Shown: positions 2,194-31,567 of the stretch, piece by piece
Layout of the letters: each line of letters begins with the position of its first letter
How positions within the stretch are numbered: the stretch's first letter is position 1
Source of the DNA: Nautilus pompilius
Taxonomy: Eukaryota > Mollusca > Cephalopoda > Nautilida > Nautilidae
Assembly: GCA_018389105.1 (NCBI GenBank)
Contig: JACATO010001665.1
Span: 99,301 to 163,300 of the forward strand
Length of the DNA stretch: 64,000 nucleotides
Reading direction: 5' to 3'
The notes under the pieces: generated by a model
What the model saw: the letters and a program-made list of their open reading frames with translations, nothing else
Database searches by the model: none
Told to the model about the DNA's origin: nothing
Translations under genes and position numbers: made by a program

Positions 2194-2262
2194 AATTTTC
2201 CATCCTATGATGAGGTTAAAAGTCCTAAATACGAAGAAATTTTCCAGCAGCAGAAATGCATG
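2194..2262 (+). CDS. penultimate exon of unidentified gene, YDEV/YEEI motifs
   Basis: This 69-base exon has a strong acceptor (pyrimidine tract, then tag) and a donor ATG|gtaaat, both phase 0. It encodes 23 residues beginning NFPSYDEVKSPKYEEIF. Two tyrosine motifs stand out. YEEI is the known preferred ligand of Src-family SH2 domains, and YDEV is of the same acidic type. PSYDEV is common just inside the membrane in small transmembrane proteins. It splices in frame to the terminal exon at 3045. I do not recognise the family; a cytoplasmic signalling or sorting tail is an inference from the motifs. Confidence 0.6.
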
Positions 2263-6801: not shown

Positions 6802-7014
6802 TTATAATGAATTCTGACATTGGACATAACTGGTGATGCTTTCAGGATAAGACTGACAAGTAATGGAGTACTGATCAAACGTAATGGAATCAGTATCCTC
6901 ATCCTCACTTTCTCCATCCCCATTATGGTTATCTGTTTTCTCCTGAGGTGTTTTTATAATTACATTACTGAGGTTGAATTCTTCAGTGGAGCAGTGGGTA
7001 GAAATCATTCCAGC
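6802..7014 (-). CDS. receptor exon 18: cytoplasmic tail and stop
   Basis: The acceptor cttgcag is in phase 0, and 70 codons run to TAA at 6802-6804. The tail has an acidic stretch (DGESEDEDTDS) and then three tyrosines, Y913, Y920 and Y927, exactly seven apart and each followed six residues later by Ser. None is in a YxxQ context. It is much shorter than the gp130 tail. Confidence 0.8.
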   Translation of the reverse strand, partial: AGMISTHCSTEEFNLSNVIIKTPQEKTDNHNGDGESEDEDTDSITFDQYSITCQSYPESITSYVQCQNSL

Positions 7015-10000
7015 CTGCAAGACAAAAAAAATAAACAACAAAGTTCTGACCATTTTTAATGGAGCTGGGAGGTTTCCATGCTGATAAATTTTTTTTAAAA
7101 AAGAAAAGTTCCCATAATGCTTTGCTATGAAAGTTGACAAAAGATACCCCAGCCAAAGAATTTTGGATTCAGATCCTAAACTAAATCTCGTGTTACCCTA
7201 TGACTATCAATCTCCGCTTTTGTGACTGGCAAAACTTTGGTAACCATCTGTGTCTTACTAACTTTTAGTGGCAGTGATGATGATGCCCAACAATGAGATA
7301 AGTTGTTATCACCTGTGATAAATGAATGGGTGTGGTGTGGCTGCTGTAAACAGGTGTGCAGCAATGAGAGAAGTAAACAGACTGGGGCTACTTTTTGATT
7401 ATCGCGAAATAAACTCGCCATTTCTGTTAGACGATGCAGTCACTAGATTTTCATCAAGCACCCTCTTGTGCCTTCCTAAAATTAACAGATAATGGAAGAA
7501 GTCAATCAGCTGTAACTACCAAGCATTAAAGTAACAATGTTAATTTTTTTTTTACTTGAAAATTCACTGGTTTAAAATGTAATGGTGAAGACCAATTGAT
7601 ACTCACTGTGCTCAGTGGAGGTATTATAATATCGGTCTGCTCGAAAAGGATCCTGAAACAGAGAGAAAACTTAATTGCCACTGCTCTTGTGAATCAATAG
7701 CTTGGTGGGGGGGTTTCCCTTTGGCTGCTGGTCAGCACTGAATCTGGTTTGAAATGGAAAACAATGGAAGATGCGCGGTGTTGCAATTGCATCATCAGAG
7801 CTTGATTTAGCCTCAGTTTGATTAGGTTTTGGTGCCCCCTTGACCTTTGTTTACATTACTTTTTTTGTGGTGGTGGAAGGGTTTCCGTTCAGATTTGCAT
7901 TTACGCTAATTTTCAGCCAACCAAACCTAATTTAATAGATAGCATTGGAGCCATGGCGGTGGCCATGACATGCTCAGTTCACTCCAAGAGCTTGGCAGTG
8001 ACCTTGGACCAGGGTTATTGGTGCAACAGATTTTCTGTCATTAAGGGGCAGGAAAAGCATCTGTGGAATTGAGAAATAAGTCGTATTATTATTATACATG
8101 ATAGATATAACGCTCTAATGAACTGACTTGTGTGAAATGTGGGATACTTTATTGTAAATTTCACTTTTGACAACCAGTGTAGGTGATCAGAATCCCTTTT
8201 GGGTGCTTGTTCTTAATGGGAAAAAAAAAGAAAGAAAAGGGGGGGGCTTGTCGTCATCGGCAATGCTGGGCGGTTTTAGAAGAATGTGTCTGTCTTCAGT
8301 GTACACACATCATTTCTGTGGAAATACACCGCTCACTTCTTCCAACAAAAAAGAAGAATGCAGAATGCCTACCTTTTACAGCAGCATGCAATGTTGACAA
8401 GACATATTAAAAAACCAAGAATTCCTCCAAATATTATGGCGTATGTAATAACCATTTTATTGCTTATGACGGTCTCTGAAATAAAGAAAGAGAATATTAA
8501 TCAGTTTTTTTATGCAGAGATTATGTCACTTGCCCCAAAACAACTGTCTGCCTTGCTCCCACTCTCTAATTAGCAATTACGATTATCTAAACAACGCGCA
8601 AGAACCCAGTCGCTGTTGTTTCTACATCAGATGGAGTTTCCAAAACAGAGTTTAATTTGTATATCCAATTTCCCTTGGCTGCACTACTAACCAGCTGCAG
8701 CAACTTCCTTGTTTCAAGGACTTTGAAGTGGACTGGCTGGCTGGCATGTTTAAAGTCTTTTCGTGGCCACTTAACTGGGCCTCTCGGTCTGGGGGGACCT
8801 GACCAATAGTCAAGAGGCCGCCCAGCCTATCTGGGGAAAAGGTGGATGAACGCCAGTCCAGTAAAAGCTCTCTGTTTGAATCCATAGTGCATAACAACGC
8901 CAAGGTTGTAGGCTTGGCGTATCCAGCAGGCCCCTGCGCGTCACAAAAGACCCAAGCTAAACTTTCTGTCTCTGTAAAATTCTACAGGCTGCTCACCAGT
9001 AATTAAACATGATGCTAGTTTCTTTTTTTAATTCTGATAACATTGCAGGGCCACCAAGTTGTCCCTGCCCCCATCGACACCCTTTAGAAAAATACCCTGG
9101 CTCTGCACATGCATTACATAGTCAGAAAAAGATTAAGTCACTTCCGGTTCCTTTGGTTCATTAATAAAAGAAAACCAGACCAGATTCTATTGGTAATTTT
9201 CGTGGAAGGGCACCTGCACGTGTCCTGATATAACAATGAAAAAGAAAAAAACCTAACCAGATGAGGTGGTGAACACCTGCAGAATTCTTTGATAGAAGAT
9301 GAAGAGCCGACAAGATGCAACAGGTATATTTATTTACTTTTTTCTTTTTTGCATTTTAATGAATCTTTAACATGGTTCATTTCTGGCTGTAACATCATCC
9401 TCAACCGGATAACAAGGCCCCGCCAGGAATTTGCATATTTAAAAAAAAAAAAAAATTTATGGCAAATTTATTTCCAGTAGTCAGAGTTGATAGTATAAAG
9501 AATGGGTGACATTGTAGTGCTGCAAAGCTTTCCACAGTAAGAAAAATACATCATCTGTCTGGGACCGGTTCTTGTATCAGCTGTGATGGTGGCTTCGTAT
9601 CGATGACTACACTAAAACAAGACTTAGAGGGATATCAAGTTATAACCCGTAGAACTTTTGGAAGTGTTCTCACACTTACAAACCCCCCCCAAATCACTTG
9701 TTTAAAGGGGGAGGGAAAATAGAGTCGGTTTTCGCAGAGTGGCTGCAGGTCAAGGGTTAGTTATTAAAACTGGAAAGGATCCCTGCATTTAAAAAACAAA
9801 CAATTACAAGACACCCCTCTCTCTCTCTCTCTCTCTATACTGGGTAATTATTTTCATGACTTAATTAATAACTACCAAATGTATCTGGAGGAGGGGCAGC
9901 ATTTTCTACAGGCATAAGAACCAACCACAAAAAATTCCCACTCAAAAAACAACAACAAGAAACTCAGGATTTATTCCAACTTTCGCTTTTGACTTCCTCG

Positions 10001-13000
10001 GAGCTTCACACTGTACCGGGCTTATTCTTAGCGGCTACAGGGAAGTGGAGACAAAGGACCCGCTGCCCTCACACCAGACTGGAGAAACAATTATGATCCT
10101 TCGATCGATTGATTAATGCTGTCAGTTACTTATTCCACTGCTGAAAAAACATTTTCTGATGTCTCTAGCCCCTGCTGGGATCCTTAAAAAGTCATTTCAT
10201 GAGATACACTCGTGGTTTTTAGCGCAGCTCTCAGAGAGATACCAGAACCATGTATAATACGTAAGAGGGGCAAAGTCTCCAAACATCTTTTACTAACCCT
10301 GTCATGGTGTTGCCATGTGTTTGCACATCACCAAGATCCCCCAGCATTTCCATTTCAGCTCTTTCAAATAAAATTTGAACTAAATAATAAGAAAGGAACC
10401 CCCCCCCCTGGTTTTTAAAGGTTTTCACTGGGAGAAGCTACCCTAATTACTAGCACGCACTTTATATTGCTGGTAAACACTGTGTCGCTATCACACACCT
10501 TATGTTGCTAGCATTCGTGCTTCATGTCATCATCGCACTCCTTGTTACTAGCTTTTCTGATCTCTCATAGCTTATGGAAGCCAGTCCTTATACCTTTAAA
10601 TTCCCATGTTGTTTCAGTCACATGCAAAACGTGACTGTCTCATGTTAACTGAAAATGTTTCTAATGCTTCTCACCAAGGCACGGACCCGGGTTTTTACTT
10701 CCCGTTAATGTCAAGTTTCACTCAGGTCTTCCAGTATTCCTTAAGGTCTGGTACTTTAGGGCTGGGAAGTCTGGCACCAGACACACGAGGAATCGCCAAC
10801 GTAAACGTCGCAAACTGAGATACGATAAAGGGACATCAGGTTCCCAAGTTAATGAAAAACTAGTCTGAATTACGTCAGCTCTCCTGAAATTGGATCTCAT
10901 CTGAGTTTTAAGTTGTTCTTTTGTTAGTCAGATAAATTGCTTGGCACACCTCACTGAATTAGTTTACCTCGTACTCATGGTGATGTTTTTAATCTGTAAG
11001 GTAATTACCTCAATCCCTTAACCTCCTGTGTCATTCCCTGTCAAAACTCTCTTCATCTTCACCATTTGCTAGAACATTATTCGCTATGAGGACAAAACCT
11101 ACTCTCATTGGATCAGTATGGTAGTGAGAACTGTTTACACTGAAGAATGTCAGTGCATTTAGTTTAAAATTACCTTTAAATATTTAATTTTTAAGCAACT
11201 ATGTACAGCAGTGTCTGTAAATTAATTCTCTGTTTTACGAACTGGCTGACGAAAGCGATTGGAGAATTTTTCTAACATAGATCACAGGTGAAGGTATTAC
11301 ACTTATTAAGGTTATCAAAAGGTGGCAAACCCAGTGGCATGCAAATGGAGATACTCATTGAAGATCCATAGATCCCGAAATAATCCTTAATCCCATCAGT
11401 AGTAACTGCCCGGATCGAAATTTGGACATCCTTTGGTCCGTCTGTACAGGAGATGTTCTTAAGGTATGAGTGTACACTGCCGTTGATGCGGATTCCTTTG
11501 TTCCGATTCAAAACGAGATTGTAGTAACTGATGGGACCATTTGGCTCTTCAGGACTTTCCCACTTTATTAAAAGCTCATTTCTCGCTTTGGCTATCACCA
11601 CAATATTCCTCACAACAGATGGCGCTGTGGAGAACAAAAGCAAAAAGGAAAAATGGAAAAATTTAAATGTAGATTCTTTTCCTGTAGCAGGGAGAAATTT
11701 AGATGGACTGTGGAAGAAAATGGCGCTGTACTGTAAAAGCATTAGTTTAACGAAGATGACTCAAGTCATTAAATTGTGAGACACATCTATCCTCCACTGC
11801 AGAGGGTAGTTCAACGTGCTTCTCAAGAAGAGCCTGGTGCAAGAGAAGGGGTTGTGAAATGGCAAAGAATTTTGTCACCTAAGCAAATGTGTGTCAGGGA
11901 CTAACGAGACCCCAGTGTGTAAAAGATAACAGGTACGTGCACTCTGGATGTCAGGGAGGGAAGCAGGCTGTTACATTAAAAAAGGAGAAGTTAAAAACAA
12001 AAGAAAATGAGCCTTTGTTAATATTTACGTCAGTTTTAGTTTGTGGATTTAATCTTCTTGTAAAAGCAAATACAGCCCCTGTCTGCAGTGAGATGGTTAC
12101 ATAGCAATATTAGTTCTTCAGGTTACAGATGCTTCTCTCTCTTTTCTTTCAAAGGGAACTTTCAGTGTGCTGAAATTTACTGATTACTTAAAAGCTATTT
12201 CATGACTTAAGATAAGGTTTATGATATACCAGAGTTTGGTAAAACTTCAGTAGTTCAGTGATCGGCACACACACACACATGGGTGATGCTATAGCTTTCC
12301 TGTCAAGAAGGCAACAAACAACCGCCTGTGTAGTAGGTGTGCCACATGATGTTCTGGTTCCACTGCTGTTTCTAATCTCACTACAAAAGATCTCAAAAAC
12401 ACAAGATGACAACCTCCAATAATGTAACCATGCAAATAATCCTTTTTTATAGAATTTGATAATTTTATGATTACTATGAATAATAAATAAAAAGTAGTAT
12501 AGATCTCATATTAGTGGTATCAGGTCTTCTAAGGTTCTTAGTGTAGATTAAAGCCTTACTTCCTGCACCGGCAGCAGGACTTCTATCCCATAACTGTCGT
12601 CACTGCCTCAAGCATCAAAACCGACCTGGTTCGGCAAGTAAGGACACCAGGTAGTTGATCGCCACTTCCCAAGAACGATTTGGGGCAGGAGAAACTTTGG
12701 AGAGACAAGGCACCTGAGGGGTGGGTCACCAAAACTATCTTCTATTTGAGAGTGAAAAAGGGGAGGTTGTGTGGGTGGGGATGAATCACATAAATTCCTT
12801 TGACAAAAAAAAAAACATGGTTTACCGCTGATCTCTGTCTTTATTTGCACAGGTGGCGATTTAGGTGAGCAGCCTGCAGAGTTGCAGGCTTCAGCGTTCA
12901 GTGTGTAGTTGGTGAAGGCCAGCAGCTTTCTTATCACCTGCTCTGTTACGTTCCCAACCTGACGATGTTCGCTCCGTTCTGGCGGAGAAGAAATCTTTAA

Positions 13001-16000
13001 AAAAATAAGTAAACAAATAAATAAACAAACGCATAAGTGTTTGGCGCATGAGCCGCCTGCTCTCCATAGAGAGAGAGGAATGTTTTCGTGCTCCCAGACA
13101 GGTTAAGTTATCGACGCACGGCTGTGGAATGCTGTTCCAAATCTCCTGTAGCACTTGCCACACTGTATCCAAGGTGCTTGGTGGCCGTCCAACTTACTCG
13201 CAGAGCCTCAGCGACGTTCACATCAGGACACATTTTAAGCCAAGGCATCTCTCCGAGTTTTCCACCAGTCTCTTTGTGTTTCAGACAGTTTTTCACCTCG
13301 TTGGCATTGGAAGATGAATCCCCATCCAATCAGCTGTCTTTCTGAGGGAATAATATAATGGGTGAGAACCTGCGTGTAGTGTAACTGTCATCAGTCAGTG
13401 TACTTTCGTTTTATGCAAACTTGGCTGATACGCAGCCACACACTTGTATTGTGATTCACCCCTATTTTTTTTCTGTAGGTTGGTTGCCCCTTCTCAGCAA
13501 AGTGTTTTGGCACATCTACACATCCACTGAGATCATTTTGCTGTCTGTCTTACTGCTGTTCTTAGAGAAATGTTAACACCTGTATCTGCAGCTAAGTCTT
13601 TCACAGGATCTCTATGGGTTCCTCGTCTACCATTATAGAAAAACGTGCCCTGAGATATTTAACTTCACTTCTGAAGAGTTTGGGCTTTTTTCTTTAAACA
13701 TGTCTATCGGCAATGGTATTAGTTTTGCAAGTCCTCCAAAAATTTGATTTCTATACATCTGTCACGTGATACTTCTCAACGGCCATAGTATCCACCACTC
13801 TACAATGCCTATACAGTTATAGTCCTGTGGCGCTTTCAGACTGCTTGCATGACAACCAACCAGTGCCCCCATACTAATACCTGGCACTCGAGGCGTGGTT
13901 GTCACATGTTATTTGCATTTTATACCCAGCTTTTCTCTGTTTCTACAATTATTTCCAATACTGTACATAAAAATCTAATTAAAAACAACAACACGTAGCT
14001 GCTATCTGACCATTGTTGGTTTGTTATCAGACATTTAGTATAATTAACGTAAAACGTTAACCTATAAATGAGCCCAATGTCTGATTACATCCATCAAAAA
14101 CAACATAACACATTATGCTTTAGACTATATATTATTATAAATACGTATTATAACAATCGTAGGCCTTTTCTACTGTCTATAATATAACAATACAGTATTT
14201 TTTTTTAATTAATAAGATTTCCTGAAAAGGGTAAAAATTTACTTACTTTTGTTAGAAATTGTGTAGTTGTTTTGTAACTTTTATTACATGGTACAAAAAA
14301 TTGTGTTTTTATTGTAAGTAACATTTTTGTACATTTAAAATTTTAGAACGAGAGACCGAAGGCAATAAGGTTATTCGCGGGTGTTTTTAACCACCACAGA
14401 GAAAAGCCTTCTTGCATTTCGCGGATAGCTGGATACCAGCAGGTCTAAAACAACCCCTGTTAGAAACAAGAAGAACTTAGTTTAGGAAAGAAGGGTTCAG
14501 TTTGGTGGGTTGTCTCCACTGCTGCTCATTTTTATCTCAGAGTTAAAAGGGGGACACTCGAGTCTCTGACCCTCTCCCCCCCCCCAAATCTTATTTCGGA
14601 GCAACAAGCAAAGTTTTCACCAGCTTCCTTAATGAGATTTTACCCATACGGACCGTGGCTGTTCTGTTTTCAGTTGGAAGTGGGGTCCACAACATGAAAA
14701 ACCTTGGGGGGGGCCAAAGAAAGCTACAGGGCTGAGTGGTAAATATACGCAGCACATCCAGTTTGTGTTCTATTCTAAGCATGACGCAGATTTGTTTGTG
14801 ATGAGAGATGGAAAGAGAGAATATGCCGACCAGATGTAAGGTAGAAAAAAGTAGTGTGTGACCACTGGAGCAGTTCTTCCACGAATACAGCGCCCCACCA
14901 TAATAATTTAGCAACCTGCCAGTAATACAGCATACAGCAGTTTGTGTTGCAGGAAATGACAATTAAAAGACAAGCAACAGATTACGCAAACTTTTGTTAC
15001 AGCATGCTTGCATGTCTAGTACACCCTTTTCGAATTTTACCCGCCTTTGATGTCATCATGTGGCATTCCCCTATCTAGATCAGCTCATCTGCAACCTGTT
15101 TCTCTTTTTTTTTTTTCAGAGTAATTTTTAACCCCCTCCCAATCTGTAGCTCACATTTTTTCCCAGATCCACTACCAACATCTCGTGTTGGGCTCCCCTG
15201 ACTGTGTTTCGTGCAGCGCCTTGTCGTGGAAACCCCAGTTTTTTTGGCGGGGGTAGGGGTCCTGGATGCATTGGTCCACGACCCCCCCAGATGGAACCTG
15301 ATTAAGTTTTGTATTTTTAAATCAGGTTTACAGTAATGAAAATTTGGGAAAGACAAGAGACACAGGTGAGAGGGAGGGTGGGGGCAAAATCAGATACAGC
15401 ACCTCGACGATGTAATGAGTGATGTTTCCATTCGGCTCGACCGGTGGCTCCCAGGTCAGCCGCACCGTTGAGGCTGTCACGTTCCCAGCTGTCAGATTCC
15501 GGGGACTCGTACCGGGAGCTACAATTCAAACAAGAATAATCCATGAAACACATCAGGTGAGACACTAGAGGATTCTAAAAGAAAAAAGTTTATGAGAATT
15601 TGTTTTCTTTTTCTTTTTTTTTTTTAATTAACATTTCTTTCTCAAAACTGGGAGGGGGGGAGGGATTTTAAAATGCATTTTGTTGTTACCGTGATGGCAG
15701 TGGAGACGGGTACACACGTCTCTGAGTATAAGGGGGTCTGTAACCCGCCATCCACCCTAAGATAACAGACTTATCTGACTTTATTTTCCCCAATATGAGC
15801 CCAGGACTGGTTCGTCATTTTTGGCCATCTTAGTTCATGAGTCAGTCACCAGGGAGGGTGAGAGCTTGGGGGGGGGGGACTGTATCCACCGTCTGTGCGT
15901 GTTCAGATTGCTTCTTGTCAGGTGGCTAGCATCCTTTACGCTCTTTGGTCGGTTGCATTCTCCTCCTCGCTAGTGACTTTTATGGCGACAATAGACGTGA

Positions 16001-19000
16001 CCCTTGCGAAGTGTCCAGCAGTGCTTATGATAGTTCGGTGCCATGCAATCCAAAAGAAAGGAAAGTGAGTAGTTCTTAGTATTCAGCAAAAACTAAAAAG
16101 AAAGAACACGAATAAAGCTTCTGGACAAGCAGCAGAAACTGTCTGATCATCTATGGGTCCCATTAGGGTCAAGCAACAGGGGGGGGGGGGTTACTGTACA
16201 TATATACATACATATACCATTATGTCATGAGTGGTATTAGTCTTGGTTTGGAAATTAAAAGTGAATCCAGATAGATAAAAATCTTAACTTCGTTTAACCA
16301 TCAAAACCGATTCGTTCAGTTTTCGTTTTTCTTCTAAGAATGCAAACTCATCTCTTCCAGGTGGATGAATACCTGTGGTTTCTTTCTCTAAAGTAGCTGA
16401 TGTCATTTCAGCCATTAAGGGTTAACGTAGCCTAATTCATGGTCCTGTAAACACTTTTCCACTGTTTAGGATTTAATTCACTTCACAAATGGAGGAGGAA
16501 TCAAATATTTAACTTCCATCCAAAAAAACTATTTTATTTTAGTACTAAAAGTCCTTCCATTAGCTGTGAAACAGAGTGGGAATTTTTAAGAGGAAGAAAA
16601 ACCATTTGACCAACTGGTTCCGTTATTTACCTGTCTCTTCTGTTTTTATGAAACTCGGGTCTCCGCACAAAGTTCCCCTCCGAGTCACGACGCACACACA
16701 CACTGCATACAGGGTGAATGGCTCAAGGCCTGTAACTTCCACCTGGCTCTGTTCCGGAAATCTACCGACCGCAGTCACATTTTTCACAAAACCTGTGACA
16801 AAACAAAAAAAAACAGGACATGTCTACTAGAAGAGAGAGAGGAGAGGAGAGATGGCGTCGGTAGAGAGAGAGAGATGGCGTTGGTAGAGAGAGAGAGAGA
16901 TGGCGTCGGTAGAGAGAGAGAGAGATGGCGTCGGTAGAGATAGAGAGATGGCGTCAGTAGAGAGAGAGAGAGATGGCGTCGGTAGAGAGAGGAGAGATGG
17001 CGTCGGTAGAGAGAGAGAGATGGCGTCGGTAGAGAGAGAGAGATGGCGTCGGTAGAGAGAGAGAGAGGCGTCGGTAGAGAGAGAGAGAGATGGCGTCGGT
17101 AGAGAGAGAGAGAGATGGCGTCGGTAGAGATAGAGAGATGGCGTCAGTAGAGATAGAGAGATGGCGTCGGTACAGAGAGATAGAGAGATGGCATCGGTAC
17201 AGAGAGATAGAGAGATGGCGTCGGTACAGAGAGATAGAGAGATGGCGTCGGTACAGAGAGATAGAGAGATGGCGTCGGTACATAGAGAGATGGCGTCGGT
17301 ACAGAGAGATAGAGAGATGGCGTCAGGCAAAAGATGCAGGAGGCGCTGTACCAAATAAAGACTCCTTTGAAAGCTGGAGTCACAAAATTTTTAAAAAAAA
17401 AACAAAGTTTCATCTAAACTTTATTAATTCTGTCTGACTGATATTGACGTTTAAATTTTGAACTTTGTTTAATCAATGCTAAATAATTCGGTAAAAGACA
17501 TCACTTGGGACGGAAAAATTGCAAATAGAGTTGCAGAAGCAGCTGCCCCTCTGTGTACTTTTGCCTGTGCGTGCGCAGGTGAAAGGTGGGTGAAAAGTGT
17601 ACGGAGCGGGTTGAGAAAGTAAGATATATGTATGTATCTTAAAAATGTGTGTGTGTGTGTGTTCAAAATTAAGGTAAACATACTGGTATTTACTGTTCTT
17701 ACAAACATGAGAGAAATCTGTATAGGCAATCTGATACATGAGCGGCTTCCCTCGAAGCTGTCTGCAACTCATTGAAGGCCACCTGATTAGAGTGAATCCG
17801 ATACCATTTTTCGCTTTAGAAAGTTCCGGTTCCTTTGGCTTGGCAGCAGCTGACACCACCAGAGAAAAGAGTTAAAAAAAAAAAAAAATAATATTAATAA
17901 TAAAAGGAAAAACAAAACTGGTGAGAGATGATGCAGATGGAGAAACACAGATTCTAAAGTTTGTTGTTGTTGTTTCTTTTTTAAATTTATAATTCCTTCC
18001 CAACACTGGCGAGTTTAAAAATTCATTTCTAGCAATAATTAAAAGTTAAAGGTAAGTTCTGTAAGAAGTGAATTCTCTTTAAAGTTGGTCGTTAAAGTTT
18101 CTGATGATTTTGGAAAACGTTAGCAACGCTGAGACCCATAACACAGGAGAACTGGTCTCCAACAACCTTGGCATTTCTTATCATCTAGCTTTTTTGTCTT
18201 TAAAAGCCGATATAATTCATCCCTTTTCTGGAAGCAGTTCAGTAACTCAGATCTCATGCATTCCGACTGTAATTTAAAGCGTATAAATCTAGTGAAAACA
18301 GGGAGCCTTGAATATCAAATTAAACTTTGATTTTTGCATATTTTGAATCAAACGGAAGGATAATTAAACTGGATGAGCTGTGTGATAAGGGAACAGATAC
18401 TTCAAAGGTGTTAGGAAAATCCTTAGCAATCACAGCAGATTAGGTGTCCAGGATCACTCAGTCCTTCTTAAGAAGCCGATGGAAAATGGATGAACCAACC
18501 TTCCACTTTTCTGAAGACCTGGGATGTTTGAAATACGACAAATAATCACTCAGAACTTTCCATAATCCTAAATCCTTTATTGCCACTTGATAAAAGATCC
18601 ATTCGTCTCACTGACGGCCATTTCTCTCTCTCCCCGCCCACCCTTGCGATGGAGCCTTTCATAAGCCGTAATGGCTTCCTGCCTAAACCAAACTAAAAGC
18701 AGTTCTAATCGGTCACTTTCGCAAAGCAACGTCAGCAAAAGCTTCAGTCAGCTTCTCCTCCCATACAGATGGGCAGTAAGACACAAATATGTTTAAAGGT
18801 GTCAGCAAGAAATCCAGGTACTGACTGCCCAGGCAGACCACCTGAAGGAAACCGAGACATCAGATGGTGTTCCCAGTTACTCCCATGGAAAGACCAAAAC
18901 AGAGCTAACCATTCCTGGCTGCTTCCCGGCCCAAATTCACGTAACAAGCTGTCCCACCCCCCCACAACAGATGATGGTAAACTTACTTTGATTATAGTTA

Positions 19001-22000: not shown

Positions 22001-24678
22001 ATTGTATTGTAAAACGTTTATAGCGAATATTATAAAAACTGTTCAGCAAGACAGAATTTTTTTCTGTTTTAAATTCTCATTAGTACAGGGGCAGGTGAAA
22101 CACTGAATATACGTTAATCAGAGACCCAGTCATGAACGTTTGAGTAAGGGATGTATTTCCCAAACGTGTGAAGAAACATTGATATAACTAAAAAGCAAGA
22201 CAAAGTCGTCTTGCGCCTTTTGTAGGTGGATCAGCTATTAGCTCTGGATTCCATGTGCACTTGCAGGTGCCTTCAGAGTGAAATGGGGCTGCTACAGTAG
22301 GGCGATTAAGACGCCACTGCGCATGGCCCACCACCTGACATTTAAATTTACTATTTATTCTCCGAAACAAAATCTGCTGACATGATTAGACACGTCAATG
22401 TGACGACGTTAAAATTTGCGTTTACCTTCCAGTATATGGTGACAGTGCCAGTGTGACTTATGTGGTAAGCCCCAGGTGTTACGATAGGCCCTTTACTCGG
22501 AGCTGGAAAAACACAAATAAGTTAATACAGTATGCTAACTACACAACATTTACCGTCTCAAATCTCACCCAATTCATTTTTCTGACCCCCTCCCACCTCC
22601 TCCTTTTATTTTCCCTTGGCGCCCAATCAGATTTTTCAATTGCAAACAAAAATCCATTATCTTTTTGTAATTTAATCATAAGTTTTTTTGTGAATAATTA
22701 TCTCCACAACATCAGAACTGCTTGTTGCTTAGATAACAATGTTGCTGTTTTTAGGGTTTGGCATCATTCTATAAAACCCCACACCAGACCTGTTTTCAAT
22801 CCACGCACGTGAAACAGATCAACAACCAGACCACACACTTTGTGGATGACACCATACTGCACCAGGTCAGACCATCAAGCGGGAAGATGCAACGTGTTTA
22901 CAGCCAAATCAAACTTGTTCAGCTGACTGAATGGTAGGTATGTCATCTAATGTCAGTAAGTGCGAGTGCCTTTGTTTGAATCACAGGTTAAATTCATTTT
23001 GGGTCACTGTCAGTGGTTTCAAAGGTGTGTCAAATTCTCATTTCAAGGTTAAAGCTTTCTCATATATAGATAATTAAAGAAACCTGACAGTTCTTCATTT
23101 TGCTGCTTTACATCTTTGCAAAGAAAACAATATATATATATGTATATATATACACATAGTGTCAGCTGTTTTTGCATCAGCCTTTAATTATTAGTAAGTT
23201 TTGAATACTGCAAACAGCAATGATTCCAATATAACAAAACATTTGCTGAGGAAGAACTTACTTACTTCTTCCTAAAGGCACGTCTAAAAGGATCACCAGA
23301 AACTCTGTCCACTTACTAGTACATCACGCACATCGCACCCAATATTTCCACAAAATTTCTACAGAGATTCCTAACCTGCTTGCAGAGTTCTACTCTTCAT
23401 CTTCATGGCATTGCTCCAAACTGAACTCTCCACCAACTTGTACACCAAAGTCATTTCATACTCTGTGTAAGGAATCAGGTTTCTTATATTCAACATAGTT
23501 GATTCAATGCTTTCCAAAGTCATTTCCTAAAGAAGAATAACCAAAAAAAAAGGAGAGAGAAAAACCATTTTCCTCTGGACTAAATTGGAACAGATTCATC
23601 ATCATCAGAACTGGTCCTTACTGGTGTGAGGTGGCTCAGACTTTTACTATGTACATTTCTCTTGTAGCTTATAACAGTTTGATGATAACATGGTGTTGAA
23701 GGGACAAATAATCAAACTCCAAGCTGTTTATTTTTTTAAGACAGTGGTGGCCGGAAAATCTTTAAGCATGTCCTCAAGCTATGGTGCGCGCTACTGACCA
23801 GGGTAGATACAAGGTCAGAGAACGGGCCATCCACTCCCCTGCTATCTGTGGCCAGTGTTGACTGTAGAAAGGATTTAGTTTGAACTTTCTAAAGAACCAA
23901 ACACCAACTTCCAATCTGCTCCAAATAAAGCAAAAACACGAGCAATGAGGTAACAGGAAGACACAATGAGTGCAACCAGACCAGCAGTTCTGAGACTGAC
24001 ACAGCAGAGAGATGTAGAGGAAACCACCGAGGCCAGCTGTAGTTAAAGGGGCAGGTTTTCACAGCAACAGCAACAGCAACATTAAACATATAGTGAACCT
24101 ATAGTCCGTATACATTGATTTTAGTCTCATCTATGCTGCCATAGACAGACTCCAGCTCCAAATTTACAGAGTCAAAATTTTCCCATAAAAAAAGACTAAA
24201 CTAAACATAAAGAACAAAGTTACTTGCATTTGACTGGTTGCTCCACTGTGACTTATAGATCAGTTTATACTGAACTGGACCCCAAACCTCCAAATAAACG
24301 TCTGGAAGTTTTCCAGTCAGGTTCAAGGAGTAGCTGGTGGGAAATATCTTCACATCTCGTAGGGCTGACAACTTCACTAGATAGAGAATTTAAGAAAAGA
24401 AAGACTGCCAGTGTGTGCTGCTCGGCACAGATCAACTACTTTCAATTTTCTAGCTAAATACTAATCATCTAGCAAAGGGTGGACAACTTGGGCAACTTCC
24501 CTACATGCGGTCCATGAGGGGGAAAAAAAAGGTATTATTTCCTAGTTTGTTTTAATTCTCTATTGTGCCATTAAATAATTCTATTTGAATTACCTGGGAT
24601 TTTAACTTTACCTTGATTATCCCTTCCTTTGTTATATGTAGCACTTGTTTTGTTCGCAATGTATTATATACCTCTCAC

Positions 24679-24709
<31 letters not shown>

Positions 24710-27700
24710 TGTGTGTGTATTTGTTGAAATAATTGCATGTAATATTTTTATCAGCAATTCTTATAATTGATAAATTTCATTATTTTGTATCTTGTTATTT
24801 GTGAGAATGCAGGTGTCCAAGAAATATATAAAGACGACGATTACAGATGAGCAGCAAGAAATTTTCCACAGCAGTCCAGACACGTAGCAGCTTCTGCTTA
24901 TGATGGAATGAATGCCAGCACAAAAACAATGGTAATTGTAAAATATCAAGGCAACATCTTCACTATATTTGTTGCAGTAAATTACTGTTCATTGTTGTGT
25001 GGTTCCTCATATCGACTGTGGCTGAGCACGTTGCTGATAGACAAACTGTCTCCCATTTCTCTTCTTTTTTATTACCCTGTGTAGTTTATTTTGTGATTAC
25101 AAAAGTTGAAAGAAGAAGAAGAAGAAATACTGAAGCTCCCAAATCTCAAAAGCATTAATTTGTTTCACTATAAAAATAACCAATTTGCAATTTTAAAAAA
25201 ATCACATGTACATCTGGCTAGGTTTCTTTCTATATTCATTTCCCTTCATTGCAACACAACTTGCAGAGATCTGACGTGTGGCCAACAAGGAGTTTGGTGA
25301 GATTGCTCGGGCATGATTCCCAAAAACGCTGCGGCGCTTCTTGACTTGATTCACTGACGGGTAGACATCTGTGAGGTTGGAGAAACATCGCCCTACAACC
25401 GTTCACCAGAAAGCATTGCCAGTCTTAGGAACTGACAGTTCTGACTGCAACAGAAAGATATCTACTAGAGATTTTCATTTTCAGGTACCACAATAAAAAA
25501 AAAAACCCCAAAAATGGCCGGCTAGGCAGGGAAAAGCATCGTGCCAGGGAAGACTCCCCAAATCAAGCCATTCCCACAAGAAGCGACTTCAGGCCCCACC
25601 TGACCTTAGCAGTCCGGTAATTTAATCAAGGAGCTTTTTATCATCAAGGACACAACCCATAGCATTTTGAATGCAAGGATATAAAAGAAATACAAAATGT
25701 ATCTACTCCAGTTGTCAGATATAGAACCACAGTAGGCCATTAACAATTTTTAGAAAATCCACACTGGTGATGAAAGATTTTTTTCTTTTTAGTTTTAATC
25801 TTTAATCTTCTTTGCCAAAAGTTTACAACAAAAAAAAGGGCCTGAAGAATACTTACTGAAAAAAATACCATATGTAATTTTCGCTATCATTAAAGTAATC
25901 TTTACTTCATCTTTAACTGAATGAACCAAAAGACCACCTTTACAATGTAAATGCCCATGTAAAGCTGGTCTTAAAGACGAGGTAAAGATGTCGTTTTTCT
26001 GCTGTGTATGGCTGATGCTGATCTGTTCCATCATTGGAGATGAGCATCATCCTATGCACATAGCAAACTCTTGTCTCATTCACATTTTTATTTCCATTAA
26101 AATGATACCAGCATCAAACGCAGGCCCAGGGAAAAACAGAGACAGACAGACAGAGACAATTTGACAGCAGCAGCTTATTTCAAAGTTAATTAAGGGGGTG
26201 ACAGCGCAGAATGAGGGCTCCTACAGGTAACTAAAGATGAGAACCTACCTATCGACTCATTAGTCAGCACGCTAAAGTTTTTCCGATACACTCCGAATAC
26301 ATTTTCTCCCGTCAGTTGGAAGTCATACGTCTGATACAAGAAGAAGCAGGTTCCGAGTGGTTCTATGACACAGCGCCCTCTGGTTGTGGGTTTCGTGGAC
26401 CCAGCATCAGTGATTGGACAGCTGCATGAGCAGTGTGGACAAATCAAGTTGCATGCATCACGGAAGCACCGTGCCCTAACAGAGAGGTTGTGAAATAGTC
26501 TGAAACGCAAAGAAAGCATCGATCTTAGTGCGTGCACAGCCCTGTTGGACACCATACCATAAAAGGCTTTTACAAAAAACTTACTGCAGCTTGCGAACGC
26601 ATTCGTCGGGAACAAGTCTCAAAAATCTACCTCTGAAAAACAGGCACAGTCTGATGGCAACCCCTCCCTGACTTCTAAAAGTCGCAGCACTGGACAAACT
26701 AAACGTAAACAGATGTGTGGGAGTCATAGTCTTAAGCGTATCACCCTATCTATTCAACTTCGGAAAACTGGCAACAGAAGCCGGGATATTTCGTTGCTTT
26801 TTCTTTTTTCTCTTCTCACCTCTTCTGACCACTTGTTCTGTTTCTTGATAAGTGCATCACCTGAGCACAGTGTTACTGTACTGTAAGAGTCAGAAATGAA
26901 AAAACAAAAGACAGATACAGATTTATACAACCTGGCAGACTTGTGGGGGCCGTGGCATTCCAAAAGAGCGGCTATTTTAGCTCATGGGTGTAACTGAAGA
27001 ACCCCTGTTAATACACATACGTACAGAAAGGTAGGGTAGGTATGCCTCGTCTAAGCATGCGAAGTGAGTGGAAGCAATCAAGGGTATCATGCAGCATCTC
27101 ATTGTCAACTTTGGAATGAAAGGGGAAAAAAAGAAAACACCAGTTTTTAAGTAGTTATAGTTAATTCTGATAATTTCTATAGTTTTTCAAGCATAGACAA
27201 AATCATTGCTGAACCCATTTATGCACCCTGAGGTCACGTGATTGGTTTTTCTTAGCATAAAGTTCTTCAGAAAACTGTTTAGGAGTCCTGGAATTTGAAT
27301 TTTAAGCAGAGAGTGGGGGAGATGGAGGAGGAGAGGGGAAAACGAAGCAGATAAAATACAAGCAATGGAAAATATAACAGATATTGTATATCAGTGGGTG
27401 AAATTTTGCATGAAAACACGTATTTCCAAAGTAAAAAAAAACAAACAAAACAACAAGTTTTCTTTTATCTGCTTCTGTCGTTAAAAATAAGCTGACACAT
27501 GAGGATCCATACTGAAGACTTGAAGGTTTTCAAAAATGCACATGGATCAAAGAATACCAAAAACAATCACCATCAGCATCTTTGACCAGAAAAGACAAAA
27601 ACAAAGCCAAAAACGGGTCTTGAAATTATTTTGCTCTTTATGCCATTGAAATTAAACGGATTGCAGATTTCTCCCCTGAAATAATAACAACAACAACAAC

Positions 27701-30700
27701 AACCATGCACTTTATAGGATAGTAGGTAAAGTGTTGTACAAAGAGAGATAATAACCTATAATTATAATTGGTTTTCTAATCAGTTTTTACCTGATGGAGA
27801 AGATTAAAACCCAGAGTGCTTTATACAGTTCCACATTTTTGTCTTCAGGTAAAAGGTATTGGCAGACTAGGCTTTTGATGTCTTCAGCGAAACATGTCAC
27901 TTCCAAAGGTTTTGGGGGTAGATCTGCAAAAGTTCAGATCATCATTAAAAACTGGGTTTTTTTATTGGTTCATGTAAAGAATCTAACAGCTTACACATAA
28001 ATTAAAATATTTTAGCTTTGTTATATAAGTCTGTAGGTCATCCACATCTTGGATATACTGCCTACAGTCAAAAAGAATTCTGAATAATCAAAGAGAGTTC
28101 AGCATGGATCCATTTGAATGTTTAAAATATTTATAAAAGACCAACAATTTTAAAAATTAGAGATATCTAGTAGAGAGATTAGGGATTGGAGAACACATAC
28201 CTTAGACAATTTTAAACTAATTAAGGGATTTTAACGTGTGGATAGTCACAGGTTGCTTTAACTATCTACAATTGCTTGAAGTCATAAGCAAATAATGGCC
28301 AAAGTATCAGTTCAGCTTTATGCTAGATAAAACAGAAATTTTAATAAGAGAATTGTGATTGGCTAGAATAAGTTACCTTGACAGTAAAAGATAAATGAAT
28401 TTACAACTCAGATTGGTAGACATCTACTCTCTCTTGATAAAGTTGTATAAACCACAATAGCTTCTCGCCTAATCGTAGCAACAGGAGTAAATTAAATTAA
28501 ATTAAAATAAAAGTAACATTTCCAGGAGACTTCCCGATCATCACTGTCTTAGATTAAATGCAGTAAAATTCTCCAGAGTGGAACATTACACGCCAGCATC
28601 TTGCTTATGGACAACAGTATATAATTAATTACATATTTTCCTGACAGACAGTTTTGCTTATCTACAACGAAATAATCCGCAGAAATATTGATTGACACAT
28701 TTTTTTTTTAAAATTTAAATTATGAAACTGAATAATTAAATTATATATTTGCTAATTTTGTTATTATCAAAGTAAAGTTAGCTAGCTAAAGACAAAGTTT
28801 ATCAATGTCACAGTTGCTTACTCCATCACAATACAGAAATTGAATACTCTAGTAAATATAAATGTAGGCAATGGCAGAGATGAAGGGAATGAGGTCAGTT
28901 GACAAAGTTGCCCACAAATAACCATTTTTAACACACAAGTATGCATATGAATTATCTGACATCTGAATAAACAATCCGGTAGTTATTACTGTTTAAAGGG
29001 AAATATGATAGCTTCCATGTATCTTTTTATTCTTACTGCAGATGCCAATAAAACTATTTAGATCAGTTATTTTAATTACCAGTACTACTACTAACATTAA
29101 CTATCATTAATACTAACTAAAATATCTTCTTAAAAAAATAGTTTTTCATCCACATTTGAAATTTAACTATTACATGAAAGATTCTTCCACTGAAAGAAGC
29201 AAGACATACAGAGACAGGATGAACAAGTGACACGTTTTAAATATACTTTTAACCACACAATGAATTATTTTAAAATATTAAAGGATATAATACACAATTT
29301 CGATAGCATTCTTTTGACAAGTTTCCTTCTCTATTCTTGTAGACTGTCTGATACCAGGGACAGGGCTACTGACAGACAAACTATCATTTCAATTAGATTT
29401 TTGTTTTATGCACTAGTAAAAAATTCAATGAGCGTAGTTGACGCCAGTTATTATTTAGTATTTCTAAACAGTAAAATAAATAACACCTTGCAGGTGCATG
29501 ATGGGTCACTGCCAGTCTTTAGATTAATAGACAGTTCTGTCTTCATCTCGTTCAAAAACATTGTTCACTTTTAAAATTCTGTTTTTTTTTTAGATTTTAA
29601 AGAAAGAAAGATTTATGAAAGACAGGTTCCTGAAGATTGCCAAATCAAGAGAAACATGAATAACGGTCTACTTACAGCCAGCAATTATGGTAAAATAAAC
29701 CGCAGAATAGAGTGCTTCGTTTGTGTGACAAATGAATGTAAAGTTCCCCTGAGTTGCATTTGTTATAACGGCTTTGATTGCAGTATTGTTGACAGCTGTG
29801 GACAGAATGGTCTTGGAGCCAAGGCTAAAGGAGAGCAACTTGCTGTAGTCAAAAGATTTCTCTGGACCATTGTAGCAACAATACACAGTCAGATTGCTGC
29901 CAACTTCAATGTAGGTATCTCTACTTGGAAAAGTATCTGCAGAAGATGAGAAATTGAAAATGAAGAGACTGCTGAAAGTTGATTTTTTCCCTAATCTTGG
30001 GGAAGTAATGGCACAAATGTATTGACACCCATATTTGAGAAAAAACTCCTTTGAGCAAACAAAGTGTTCCAGTTCCAGATTAGTTTTAAATTAGCCATTG
30101 AATATATATTTTCATATTCCATCACCATAAAATCCAGATTATGCTAAAGTATGCATACCTTGTAAATAGTTTCAAAATTTACTACAGGTTGAGAATCCCT
30201 TGGGACCAAATGTGTTTCGGATTCGGAATATAGATATACCAGCATAATTTGGTATCTAACCCACTGGGGAATGGGAACTGGGCACAAGTTCCTTTACAGC
30301 ATTATAACTGCATATCAATACAGGTATTTTTATGCATGAAACCATAAGAAAAAGGTGTGCATTTAACCATCAGAAAGGTAAGCTATCACTATGGTATGCC
30401 TACCGGTACCGTAGAGGTATCTGAAGGCCTTTTAAACATTTTCAAAGTATATTCACACCAACAACGAAGCACAGAAAAGGCACAAAAATTACAGCGAGTA
30501 ATATGCGTACGGCAAGCGTGTCGGGACTCATGCATCGCCAAGGAACCTTCTGGAATTTTCCGCTGGAGGTGCTCCAAACATATTTTGGAGCTTTTTAATT
30601 TTCAGAATTTCGGATAAGGGATTCTCAACCTGTAGGACGATTAGTAGTTTGTGTAATCCCATTTACAAAGAAAGATTAAAGAGCCTTTGGCTGTTCGGAT

Positions 30701-31561
30701 TAGCGTACAGATGCTCTAATGGTGGCATGGTTGATGTTTTTTAAAAATCTTTTCTGAGAAGAAAGATCCATCCAAATAGAGATTGACGCAAGTAGCATAT
30801 TGCATATTAAGAGACCAAAAGATGCATCAAAACATTTCTGATCAGACACTATGAATTATTTTTAGTCATTCTGTGATATCTTCCTGGTCAGGTCGTAAAA
30901 GCAGTGAACAGTTTAAAAAAAAACAAAAAAAAACCAGAGACAATTTTTAGAACCTGAATTGTCTCAATTTGATTCCCCGCCAAATTTCTAACAAGCAAAA
31001 ACTAAAGATTATGGTGTTAGTTAATTGCTCAAGATAATAGAGGGGCTTAATACTAGGACAATAATTCTTTACTGAAAATAATGTATACATGAATAACAAT
31101 CATCTATTGCTGGGTATAAATCAGTTTAAAAATTGAACTGACAAACTTATTCTCTCCATGAAGAAGTTTTATAAATGTTTATATACATGATGGCTTCCAG
31201 TCTCCTGTCAGTAACTGAACCAAACCATAACAAACAATCAGACGCAGCAAAATTTTTAAATGACCTGGACAGATTTAGTTAATTTACAATTTTCTCAAAT
31301 TTCAAATTGAAATAAAGCAAAATAACAAGCATCTGCCCGTTCAGCTAGTGCCATTAAACATGCACATGTTGTTTATATGAGACATGCGGTAATTCTGACC
31401 GCTTTGTTCGATAGAGAAAAATATCTGGAAGAAAAAAATGTTATTATTTATCTTTCCATCATAAGTACGTTATGATAACAAAAATGTTACTCACAGATAA
31501 GTGTTGGCGATGCTGCAAATTCCTGGAAAAAGACAACAGCTGCCAAGAGAGATCTGAACAT
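6802..31561 (-). CDS. gp130/Domeless-like class I cytokine receptor (whole gene)
   Basis: This is a single-pass receptor of the class I cytokine family, by analogy a plasma-membrane receptor signalling through JAK/STAT. Eighteen coding exons (listed separately) join in phase to about 934 residues, close to the size of vertebrate gp130. Domains in order are: signal peptide 1-22, Ig-like D1 24-109, D2 110-237 with the C-x9-C pair C120/C130, D3 238-333, five more FNIII domains D4-D8 334-814, membrane span about 822-847, and an 86-residue tail with a box1-like PPL. The D1/D2 join GYLPPKPLEVTC mirrors gp130 GLPPEKPKNLSC. Domain borders fall in phase 1, as in vertebrate relatives. Departures are Tyr for the Trp after C130, a degraded WSxWS and no YxxQ. 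D7-D8 resemble generic FNIII of adhesion proteins more than gp130. The family call is strong; orthology to gp130, LIFR or Domeless is not decidable by eye. Confidence 0.85.
7607..7652 (-). CDS. receptor exon 17: box1-like segment
   Basis: A 46-base exon (enters phase 2, leaves phase 0) with acceptor gtttcag and donor gtgagt. It encodes ILFEQTDIIIPPLST, about 10 residues inside the membrane. A short hydrophobic run ending in Pro-Pro at this position is typical of box1, the JAK-binding element of class I receptors. The assignment as box1 is by position and Pro content. Confidence 0.75.
8373..8475 (-). CDS. receptor exon 16: transmembrane segment
   Basis: A 103-base exon (enters phase 1, leaves phase 2) between tttcag and gtaggc. 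It encodes an uninterrupted hydrophobic stretch from about residue 822 (MVITYAIIFGGILGF) to 847, ending CCCKR, a typical stop-transfer end with possible palmitoylation cysteines. A membrane span on its own exon after the last FNIII is the standard layout of this family. Confidence 0.85.
11331..11624 (-). CDS. receptor exon 15: FNIII domain D8
   Basis: A whole FNIII domain in one 294-base exon, phase 1 to phase 1. It has the strand-B Trp (LLIKWESP), the EPNGPISYY turn and SIRAVTTDG near the end. Acceptor is ccacag. The donor gtttgc is weak but is the only one in this part giving phase 1 for the membrane exon; the frame stays open beyond it to 11272. Confidence 0.75.
12826..12978 (-). CDS. receptor exon 14: second half of FNIII D7
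   Basis: Encodes LLAFTNYTLNAEACNSAGC, the F-G part of an FNIII domain, with donor gtaaac in phase 1. The 5' border is unclear. The best acceptor (tctccgccag, exon to 12978) enters in phase 1, which does not fit the phase-0 donor of exon 13. Inner acceptors ending the exon at 12958 (phase 0) or 12965 (phase 2, with a donor 5 bases further in exon 13) restore the frame. Confidence 0.7.
12990..13340 (-). mobile_element. frameshifted Tc1/mariner transposase C-terminal relic
   Basis: Minus-strand frames carry the end of a Tc1-like transposase in correct order. NANEVKNCLKHKE corresponds to the stretch after the DNDPKH motif, CPDVNVAEAL to PDLNPIEHLW, and after a frame change LQEIWNSIPQPCVDNL to the conserved EEWNxIPxxxxxxL end. 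The catalytic DNDPKH region is eroded (DGDSSS). It lies in the intron between receptor exons 13 and 14 and probably accounts for the unusually codon-like composition there. Confidence 0.65.
15403..15518 (-). CDS. receptor exon 13: first half of FNIII D7
   Basis: A 116-base exon, acceptor ttgtag, entering in phase 1. It encodes PGTSPRNLTAGNVTAS, then RLTWEPPVEPNGNITHYIVE, the A-C strands of a textbook FNIII domain. Donor gtgctg (phase 0) is weak; gtatct five bases on would be a phase-2 alternative. Confidence 0.8.
16631..16792 (-). CDS. receptor exon 12: second half of FNIII D6
   Basis: A 162-base exon, phase 1 to phase 1, acceptor tgtcacag after a T/A-rich tract and donor gtaaat. It encodes VEVTGLEPFTLYAVCVCVV, the E-F-G strands with the usual L-x-P-x-T-x-Y signature. 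Confidence 0.8.
16845..17330. repeat. intronic minisatellite, GATGGCGTCGGTAGAGA type
   Basis: About 20 imperfect copies of a 22-29 base unit, each with a constant GATGGCGTCGGTA core and a GA run of varying length, lie between receptor exons 11 and 12. Because units drift in length, both strands carry long spurious frames through it; these are not genes. Confidence 0.9.
17703..17849 (-). CDS. receptor exon 11: first half of FNIII D6
   Basis: A 147-base exon, phase 1 to phase 1. It encodes AAKPKEPELSKAKNG, then FTLIRWPSMSC and MYQIAYTDFSHV, the A-C strands of an FNIII domain. I chose donor gtaaga over an earlier gtttgt because it is stronger and keeps the frame into exon 12. Confidence 0.8.
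18987..19143 (-). CDS. receptor exon 10: second half of FNIII D5
   Basis: A 157-base exon entering phase 0 and leaving phase 1, with tgcttcag and gtaagt borders. Encodes EYLDWVSLPAGSAEYLVSL and HEFRFAVSFNSLESSSG, matching the layout of the fifth domain of gp130 relatives, which is also split near its middle. Confidence 0.8.
19313..19455 (-). CDS. receptor exon 9: first half of FNIII D5
   Basis: A 143-base exon, enters phase 1 and leaves phase 0 (ttttcag, gtgagg). Encodes LPKPAGVVSERMTGNNV, then VSWKLPEES and TTVFWCLKDY. The W-C spacing recalls gp130 D5, where VEWTTP is followed by LEWC. Confidence 0.85.
21620..21833 (-). CDS. receptor exon 8: second part of FNIII D4
   Basis: A 214-base exon, phase 0 to phase 1 (tttacag, gtgagt). 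Begins NVPKKYRNGIIRFFTVKV and ends near WITVTASTIRGDSPASK. The NGxI turn and the closing ASTIRGDSPAS match D4 of gp130 (ANGKILDYEV, VRNLVGKSDAA). Confidence 0.88.
22426..22502 (-). CDS. receptor exon 7: first part of FNIII D4
   Basis: A 77-base exon, enters phase 1 and leaves phase 0 (tttccag, gtaaac). Encodes PSKGPIVTPGAYHISHTG, then VTIYWK. gp130 has PSKAP at the same D3/D4 join, followed by the strand ending LVWK, so this exon is one of the clearest family markers. Confidence 0.88.
23376..23526 (-). CDS. receptor exon 6: second half of cytokine-binding D3
   Basis: A 151-base exon, phase 0 to phase 1 (tctttag, gttagg). Encodes LIPYTEYEMTLVYKLVESS, then VWSNAMKMKS. The WSxWS box expected here is reduced to SSVWSNA, keeping W320-S321 only. 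The PYTEY signature is standard for FNIII. Confidence 0.85.
24228..24364 (-). CDS. receptor exon 5: first half of D3, GC donor
   Basis: A 137-base exon, acceptor ttgtcag in phase 1. Encodes LRDVKIFPTSYSLNLTG, then YLEVWGPVQYKLIYKS. The only exit that keeps the frame into exon 6 is GCAAGT, the usual form of a non-canonical GC donor; the GT two bases further would put a stop codon early in exon 6. Confidence 0.78.
24677..24718. repeat. (CG)n(TG)n alternating tract
   Basis: About nine CG steps run directly into about twelve TG steps with no break in purine-pyrimidine alternation, in the intron between receptor exons 4 and 5. Such tracts are known to favour Z-DNA. Confidence 0.9.
26249..26499 (-). 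CDS. receptor exon 4: second part of cytokine-binding D2
   Basis: A 251-base exon, enters phase 2 and leaves phase 1 (gtttcag, gtaggt). It holds eight cysteines (C165, 170, 174, 177, 179, 181, 197, 205); the last two, in RCVIEPLGTCFF, fit the second conserved pair of D2. TYDFQLTGENVFG follows, matching the gp130 strand ending VEAENALG. The Cys cluster 165-181 is an insertion compared with gp130. Confidence 0.82.
27791..27923 (-). CDS. receptor exon 3: first part of cytokine-binding D2
   Basis: A 133-base exon, enters phase 1 and leaves phase 2 (tttgcag, gtaaaa). Encodes LPPKPLEVTCFAEDIKSLVC, then QYLLPED. The C-x9-C pair at 120 and 130 is the hallmark of class I receptors; Tyr replaces the usual Trp two residues after the second Cys. 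Confidence 0.88.
29676..29936 (-). CDS. receptor exon 2: Ig-like D1
   Basis: A 261-base exon, phase 1 to phase 1 (cttctgcag, gtaagt). Encodes an Ig-like domain with Cys in YIEVGSNLTVYCCYN and the partner in NFTFICHTN, closing VYFTIIAG. gp130 D1 ends YGITIISG at the same place. Several NxT/NxS sites suggest N-glycosylation. Confidence 0.85.
30185..30632. mobile_element. Tigger/pogo-like MITE
   Basis: A 448-base element bounded by perfect inverted ends CAGGTTGAGAATCCCTT and AAGGGATTCTCAACCTG, with a TA duplication at each side (30183-30184, 30633-30634). Inner stretches such as TGTGTTTCGGATTCGGA and TGGAATTTTCCGCTGGAGG strongly recall the TA-inserting Tigger/pogo elements of vertebrates. It has no transposase frame, so it is non-autonomous. 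It lies in the first coding intron of the receptor. Confidence 0.8.
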
Positions 31562-31567
31562 GGTAAT
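31495..31567 (-). CDS. receptor exon 1 (first coding): start and signal peptide
   Basis: The start ATG is at 31559-31561, six bases after an acceptor (ttatcctcag), so at least one non-coding exon must lie upstream. It encodes MFRSLLAAVVFFQEFAASPT, a short basic start, hydrophobic core and small residues, a typical secretion signal. Donor gtgagt leaves in phase 1, as usual after signal exons of this family. Confidence 0.82.

Follow-up and report, generated by a model that had tools for sequence, protein, structure and literature searches.

A predicted class I cytokine receptor of the gp130/LIFR group encoded in the genome of Nautilus pompilius

Does a cephalopod encode a class I cytokine receptor of the tall kind represented by gp130 and LIFR, and how would such a receptor be related to those of vertebrates and flies? 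The question is raised by a locus of Nautilus pompilius, which a preliminary description had read as a gp130-like cytokine receptor in a non-vertebrate genome. The locus lies in a stretch of 64,000 nucleotides, here called the window, which corresponds to bases 99301-163300 of contig C1589 of the genome searched (728 Mb, 2558 contigs). Our best explanation, taken as a whole and held with a probability of roughly 85%, is that the gene, hereafter P1, encodes an invertebrate tall class I receptor of the gp130/LIFR/OSMR/IL12RB2 group, which is proposed to signal and to share a common bilaterian ancestor with its vertebrate counterparts. Articles cited by PMC number are drawn on in excerpt throughout.

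Gene model and domain layout of P1

P1 was modeled from open frames and splice sites, the sites being chosen by eye so that the frame holds. The predicted gene runs along the minus strand from 31561 to 6802, and its 18 coding exons join in phase, as had been described, into an open frame of 933 stop-free codons followed by a TAA stop (Table 1). The span first given, 6802..31567, keeps its lower end; 31567 proved to be a 3′ splice site that precedes the ATG (31561) by six bases, and this suggests a non-coding 5′ exon upstream of exon 1. Sixteen of the 17 introns are GT-AG, and the one that follows exon 5 has GC-AG ends. In order, the introns have phases 1,1,2,1,0,1,0,1,0,1,1,1,0,1,1,2,0; exons 6, 13, and 15 end in weak splice donors.

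The predicted protein runs from a signal peptide through an Ig-like D1, a cytokine-receptor module (D2-D3), and five FNIII domains (D4-D8) to one membrane span and a tail of 104 residues. D1 (exon 2) and D8 (exon 15) are each encoded by one exon and D2 to D7 by two exons each (3-4, 5-6, 7-8, 9-10, 11-12, and 13-14), followed by the span in exon 16 and the tail in exons 17-18. The ectodomain as counted, 775 residues, carries 19 N-glycosylation motifs and 19 cysteines. Splice and phase fit was the sole basis for exons 17 and 18, and on it they were preferred to an alternative last exon at 8060 of the window, which would stop after 15 residues.

Elsewhere in the window, exons of the Polycomb WD40 protein EED, recognized by eye, adjoin P1 on the minus strand (about 34936-46400); their product looks more divergent than a vertebrate EED would be. 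A degenerate (TC)n tract of 1.2 kb occupies 50530-51729, and at 57326-58256 a 67-base unit is repeated in tandem 14 times with 98% matches.

Table 1. Predicted exons of P1 and probable last exons of its neighbor P2, in window coordinates
Feature	Position	Strand	Basis
P1 exon 1: ATG and signal peptide (MFRSLLAAVVFFQEFAASPTLI)	31495..31561	-	splice/phase model
P1 exon 2: Ig-like D1	29676..29936	-	model; PDB matches
P1 exon 3: D2 first half, C-x9-C	27791..27923	-	model; PDB matches
P1 exon 4: D2 second half, C-x7-CFF	26249..26421	-	model; PDB matches; paralogue motif
P1 exon 5: D3 first half, GC donor	24228..24376	-	splice/phase model
P1 exon 6: D3 second half, SSVWS at WSXWS place	23376..23526	-	model; paralogue alignment
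P1 exon 7: D4 first part, APSKGP join	22426..22502	-	model; PDB alignments
P1 exon 8: D4 second part	21620..21833	-	model; PDB matches
P1 exon 9: D5 first half, FWC	19313..19455	-	model; PDB matches
P1 exon 10: D5 second half, LDW	18987..19143	-	model; PDB matches
P1 exon 11: D6 first half	17703..17849	-	splice/phase model
P1 exon 12: D6 second half	16631..16792	-	model; 52% identity with P2
P1 exon 13: D7 first half, extra FNIII	15403..15518	-	model; DNA identity with C885 copy and P2
P1 exon 14: D7 second half	12826..12994	-	splice/phase model
P1 exon 15: D8, complete FNIII in one exon	11355..11624	-	model; DNA identity with C885 copy
P1 exon 16: transmembrane span	8373..8475	-	splice/phase model
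P1 exon 17: juxtamembrane, box-1-like IIIPPL	7556..7652	-	better of 2 phase-fitting candidates; putative
P1 exon 18: remaining tail, 3 Tyr, no YxxQ, stop TAA	6802..7014	-	putative
P2 tail exon, probable (NFPSYDEVKSPKYEEIFQQQKCM)	2194..2262	+	splice sites and phase; putative
P2 last exon, probable (tail and stop), tail-to-tail with P1	3045..3509	+	putative

Searches bearing on class I identity

At E values up to 1, the full P1 protein matched 161 PDB sequences. Ranks 1-4 were receptor tyrosine phosphatases, aligned through D6-D8 with E values down to 2.1e-21; among the best 60 of the 161, LIFR followed at rank 5 (3.3e-17, residues 25-543), colinear with P1 from D1 to D6, and gp130 was found at 9.7e-10 (residues 32-448). 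A phosphatase also came first among the eight matches of D4-D6 (9.6e-7). LIFR was second there (2e-6) and a further phosphatase third (2.8e-6); two chains of gp130 (1e-3) preceded three FNIII proteins with weaker scores. The phosphatase rows could be taken to mean that P1 is not a cytokine receptor but an FNIII protein of the adhesion or receptor-phosphatase-like kind. However, 17 of the 18 PDB matches of D1-D3 alone (E up to 10) were LIFR, gp130 (2.6e-3), IL31RA, or CRLF1, the sole exception being a geranyltranstransferase at E 0.7, and Pfam recognized no phosphatase catalytic domain in P1; we regard that identity as extremely unlikely. The preliminary description had named profile searches placing D1-D3 outside class I as what would refute it; the D1-D3 matches fall almost wholly within class I.

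A profile of P1 and its relatives P2 and P3 (described below) returned 57 PDB rows, the first nine of which were LIFR, IL12RB2, gp130, and OSMR chains; class I chains made up 22 of the 57, and the remainder were named as FNIII proteins. gp130 reached 3.2e-15, with LIFR and IL12RB2 scoring above it. As a control, D1-D3 was shuffled 500 times: the real sequence scored 30.4 bits against LIFR and 22.2 bits against gp130, compared with maxima of 6.5 and 6.7 bits for the shuffles, of which 203 and 93, respectively, gave no score at all. From the D1-D3 matches, the colinearity with LIFR, and the ranking of the profile, we conclude that P1 is, judged by sequence, a tall class I receptor, by score nearer LIFR than gp130. 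The label gp130-like thus holds for the broad gp130/LIFR/OSMR/IL12RB2 group, within which LIFR, not gp130, scores best; a reading of P1 as a one-to-one gp130 orthologue is not backed by the profile scores.

In the Pfam check proposed earlier, fn3 passed its cut-off in four stretches of the full protein and no class I family was recognized. The count of five FNIII domains, already part of the preliminary description, comes from how the exons are laid out and from the alignment with LIFR, which stops in D6, and agrees with the likeness of P2 from D1 to D8. An Rfam search returned 0 matches.

A structure model of D1, built from exon 2 alone, was all-beta and weak (pLDDT 58.7). When this model was used in a fold search of the PDB, in which chain identity was read from entry title and length, 16 of the 50 listed rows were class I receptor entries (leptin, LIF, CNTF, IL-11, IL-27, OSM, and gp130). 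The top four rows were a bacterial peptidase, and PD-L1 and further Ig-like domains were also listed. This is in keeping with an Ig-like D1, although as proof it is slight.

A family of related loci and its class I motifs

At least four loci, P1 included, make up a family of relatives; the number is a lower bound given that matching was done exon by exon on a limited candidate list. On the same contig, P2 lies on the plus strand from 73635 on and matches P1 exon by exon from D1 to D8; P3 lies on the minus strand, from 61530 to 48383, and matches P1 exon by exon in part. The first 14 intron phases are equal in P2 and P1, the splice sites of P2 having been chosen with P1 as a guide. Over D1-D6, P2 is 42% and P3 40% identical to P1; the search for P3 did not recover exons 5, 7, 8, and 12, which its row therefore lacks, or anything from the second half of D6 to the tail. 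The left end of the window probably holds the last two exons of P2, convergent with P1. Two further partial copies are a D6-end-to-tail copy at the end of contig C885 and a D1-D3 copy on contig C999, for which D4 and onward were not found in bases 1-48000 of 87415. Genome-wide, D7-D8 gave 10 matches: three in P1, two in P2, two in the C885 copy, and, on C297 and C2069, three FNIII matches that were weaker. Contig C2069 also holds a large FNIII exon array (about 103-340 kb), partly in near-equal repeats about 3.8 kb apart.

Because P2 has equal intron phases and 42% identity, and because the shuffles fell far below the real D1-D3, P1 is more than a chance assembly. It might still be a decayed copy, as P3 and the C999 copy look incomplete, the tail exons of P1 have no recognized counterpart, and three of its donors are weak; against this, the frame stays open across 18 exons and P2 is similar exon by exon from D1 to D8, so that we consider a pseudogene very unlikely.

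The class I consensus in the D2 region is CX(9-10)CXWX(26-32)CX(10-15)C (PMC1963337). In D2 of P1, the C-x9-C noted previously is present as C120 and C130 and, together with a C-x15-C, fits the consensus; CxW reads CxY, and the spacing between the second and third cysteines is x24, compared with 28-34 in class I. P1, P3, and the C999 copy retain C-x9-C, the first cysteine being gone in P2, and the second residue past the second cysteine is Y or F in the copies where the consensus has W. An extra D2 cysteine pair, C-x(4-7)-CFF, is common to P1, P2, P3, and the C999 copy. The WSXWS motif that closes D3 is known to vary, as in GHR (PMC1963337, in the part cited), and its place is taken by SxxWS in the four copies with the exon seen (SSVWS in P1; SKFWS, SKYWS, and SQFWS in the others). 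The WC and DW of D5 align with LIFR, with WI in P3. The D3/D4 join reads APSKGP in P1, SPSKGP in LIFR, and RPSKAP in gp130 in the printed PDB alignments; the join reported earlier as nearly that of gp130 is there, with the LIFR version closer. Judged by sequence, the class I marks of P1 appear partly worn, with CxY, the x24 spacing, and S for the first W of WSXWS; this speaks against our reading, as do the lack of a class I family in Pfam and the peptidase at the head of the D1 fold search.

Two blocks of DNA stand out in the comparison of copies. That around exon 13 (window 15394-15522) is 95% identical to C885 and 88% to P2 and ends within 10 bases of the exon; that around exon 15 (window 11327-11646) is 91% identical to C885 and ends within 30 bases. 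In contrast to these near-identical blocks, exon 14 shows 53% protein identity over 36 residues. The blocks perhaps reflect exon-limited gene conversion or shuffling between relatives.

Tails, signaling partners, and origin

The predicted tail of P1 holds three tyrosines and no YxxQ. About ten residues past the membrane span it carries the degenerate stretch IIIPPL, which only resembles box 1. The tail of P2 comes to a predicted 177 residues and the C885 copy has an open frame of 303 codons; YxxQ is absent from all three tails read, and a box 1 exon was sought and not found in P2 and the C885 copy. These points, too, count against our reading.

For the kinase, the minus strand of contig C374 matched FERM_F1 (1.1e-11) and, below its cut-off, FERM_F2 (2.2e-4), followed by a C-lobe piece of one kinase domain and then the N-lobe, loop, and C-lobe of a second. 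JAKs have the order FERM, pseudokinase, and kinase, and mainly from this domain order we read the gene as JAK-like. No SH2 was found in it in three minus-strand frames of four stretches. The sequence of the kinase exons alone does not single out JAK: among the best 60 of 821 PDB matches passing 1e-20, the first was a 678-residue chain named EGFR (4.2e-55), followed by 7t6f (“Tyrosine-protein kinase”, 4.8e-45), which we take to be JAK1, and TYK2 (1.6e-39), with Kit, SYK, FGFR, and JAK1 kinase chains in later rows. A whole-genome FERM_F2 search had no match anywhere and hence gives no answer on JAK. A JAK2 kinase query of the genome gave 70 matches, the JAK-like exons being among 14 places beyond the top ones; two of the top three matches (L014 and L016), inspected by eye, did not look like JAK and were set aside.

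As for STAT, an exon on contig C557, the one match of a genome search with STAT_bind, matched STAT5A/B at 8.8e-18 and STAT6 at 2e-5 (seven PDB matches in all) and is, by these scores, STAT5/6-like. Haemocyan_bet_s (PF14830) matches were also seen on this contig (seven of 14 in the genome, the other seven on C1362); this family of hemocyanin units is specific to molluscs, in keeping with the animal.

In the class I scheme, ligand binds at D1-D3, chains pair, JAK sits at box 1, and STAT is recruited. Applied to P1, a helical cytokine would bind D1-D3, and the five FNIII domains would space the module away from the membrane and determine the geometry in which chains pair. Two chains would pair, P1 with itself or with a paralogue; JAK on the box-1-like stretch would phosphorylate the tails, and STAT would be recruited, perhaps mainly through the longer-tailed relatives. 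By analogy, P1 may also signal weakly, signal through partners, or serve as a regulator. A more specific proposal, that P1 has no signaling of its own and would act as a regulator or decoy paired with a longer-tailed relative, as Latran does with Domeless, would fit its short tail beside those of P2 and the C885 copy, the side-by-side position of P1, P2, and P3, and the Drosophila precedent (PMC2914635). The box-1-like stretch, however, lies near the usual distance from the membrane; Latran has no FNIII domain (PMC2914635), compared with five in P1; and, because the longer tails also have no YxxQ and the STAT exon is STAT5/6-like, the lack of YxxQ in P1 says little. We consider this role possible but doubtful, and keep to a receptor proposed to signal.

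A receptor found with a JAK-like gene and a STAT in a mollusc makes this kind of receptor look older than vertebrates, as earlier work suggested. In our proposal, the bilaterian ancestor would have had a single tall receptor, from which P1 and the vertebrate tall receptor genes would derive through duplications that took place independently in each line. Tentatively, and with rather less than even confidence, we suggest that a tall, split-exon receptor of gp130/LIFR type predates the protostome/deuterostome split and that molluscs separately made an independent system of shared and private chains feeding JAK/STAT. If our reading is true, the layout of Ig domain, module, and FNIII domains predates that split, and the split-exon structure probably does too, an early date that the fly gene, with its single-exon module, had hidden. 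It would also mean that a group for which excerpts of PMC13203501 report no IL-6-type cytokine found has a family of such receptors alongside JAK and STAT, and would make concrete both the search for a ligand and a test of signaling versus regulatory chains.

Class I receptors are already in print for Ciona (PMC1963337) and molluscs (PMC13203501); the new points here are the eight-domain ectodomain, SxxWS for WSXWS, and a receptor cluster with unlike tails. Neither an eight-domain ectodomain nor a receptor cluster in molluscs turned up as described before in a literature search that had most subscription journals outside it. The parts of PMC13203501 covered mention no cluster, intron phases, or eight domains, and those of PMC1963337 and PMC6997183 state no intron phases for vertebrate receptor genes.

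Among known receptors, LIFR is like P1 in its colinear Ig D1, D2-D3, and D4-D6, the SPSKGP join, and the WC and DW of D5. LIFR has an additional N-terminal module and three FNIII domains; P1 differs from it in having five and in SxxWS. gp130 (IL6ST), which has a long tail with YxxQ sites, shares with P1 the order of Ig domain, D2-D3, and FNIII domains and the C-x9-C. Between module and membrane, the tall gp130/LIFR group has three FNIII domains, as described for gp130 in excerpts of PMC2914635, compared with five in P1, which is therefore a variant rather than a typical member.

Domeless and Latran resemble P1, by description only, as invertebrate class I receptors with signaling and non-signaling duplicates (PMC2914635). 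P1 could be the local counterpart of Domeless, with gp130, LIFR, and Domeless as equal descendants of one gene, and we give this only slightly less than an even chance: Domeless is described as gp130-related with three FNIII motifs (PMC2914635), and the fly class I receptors are Domeless and its duplicate Latran (PMC3296744, PMC2914635). Against it, the module is encoded by a single exon in the fly and is split in gp130 (PMC1963337, in part), as it is, over four exons, in P1. Domeless has three FNIII domains and Latran none, compared with five in P1. Our preferred reading remains a tall receptor of the gp130/LIFR group.

Within Mollusca, IL6R-type class I receptors have been reported together with JAK and STAT; in the parts of that report covered, these 'IL6R' proteins have three to four FN3 domains by SMART, compared with five FNIII in P1 (PMC13203501). 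The gp130-like receptor of Ciona (BN000969), described in excerpts of PMC1963337 as having a gp130-like layout and a gp130-like split gene, is likened to P1 by that description: a non-vertebrate receptor with the same layout and a module split over exons.
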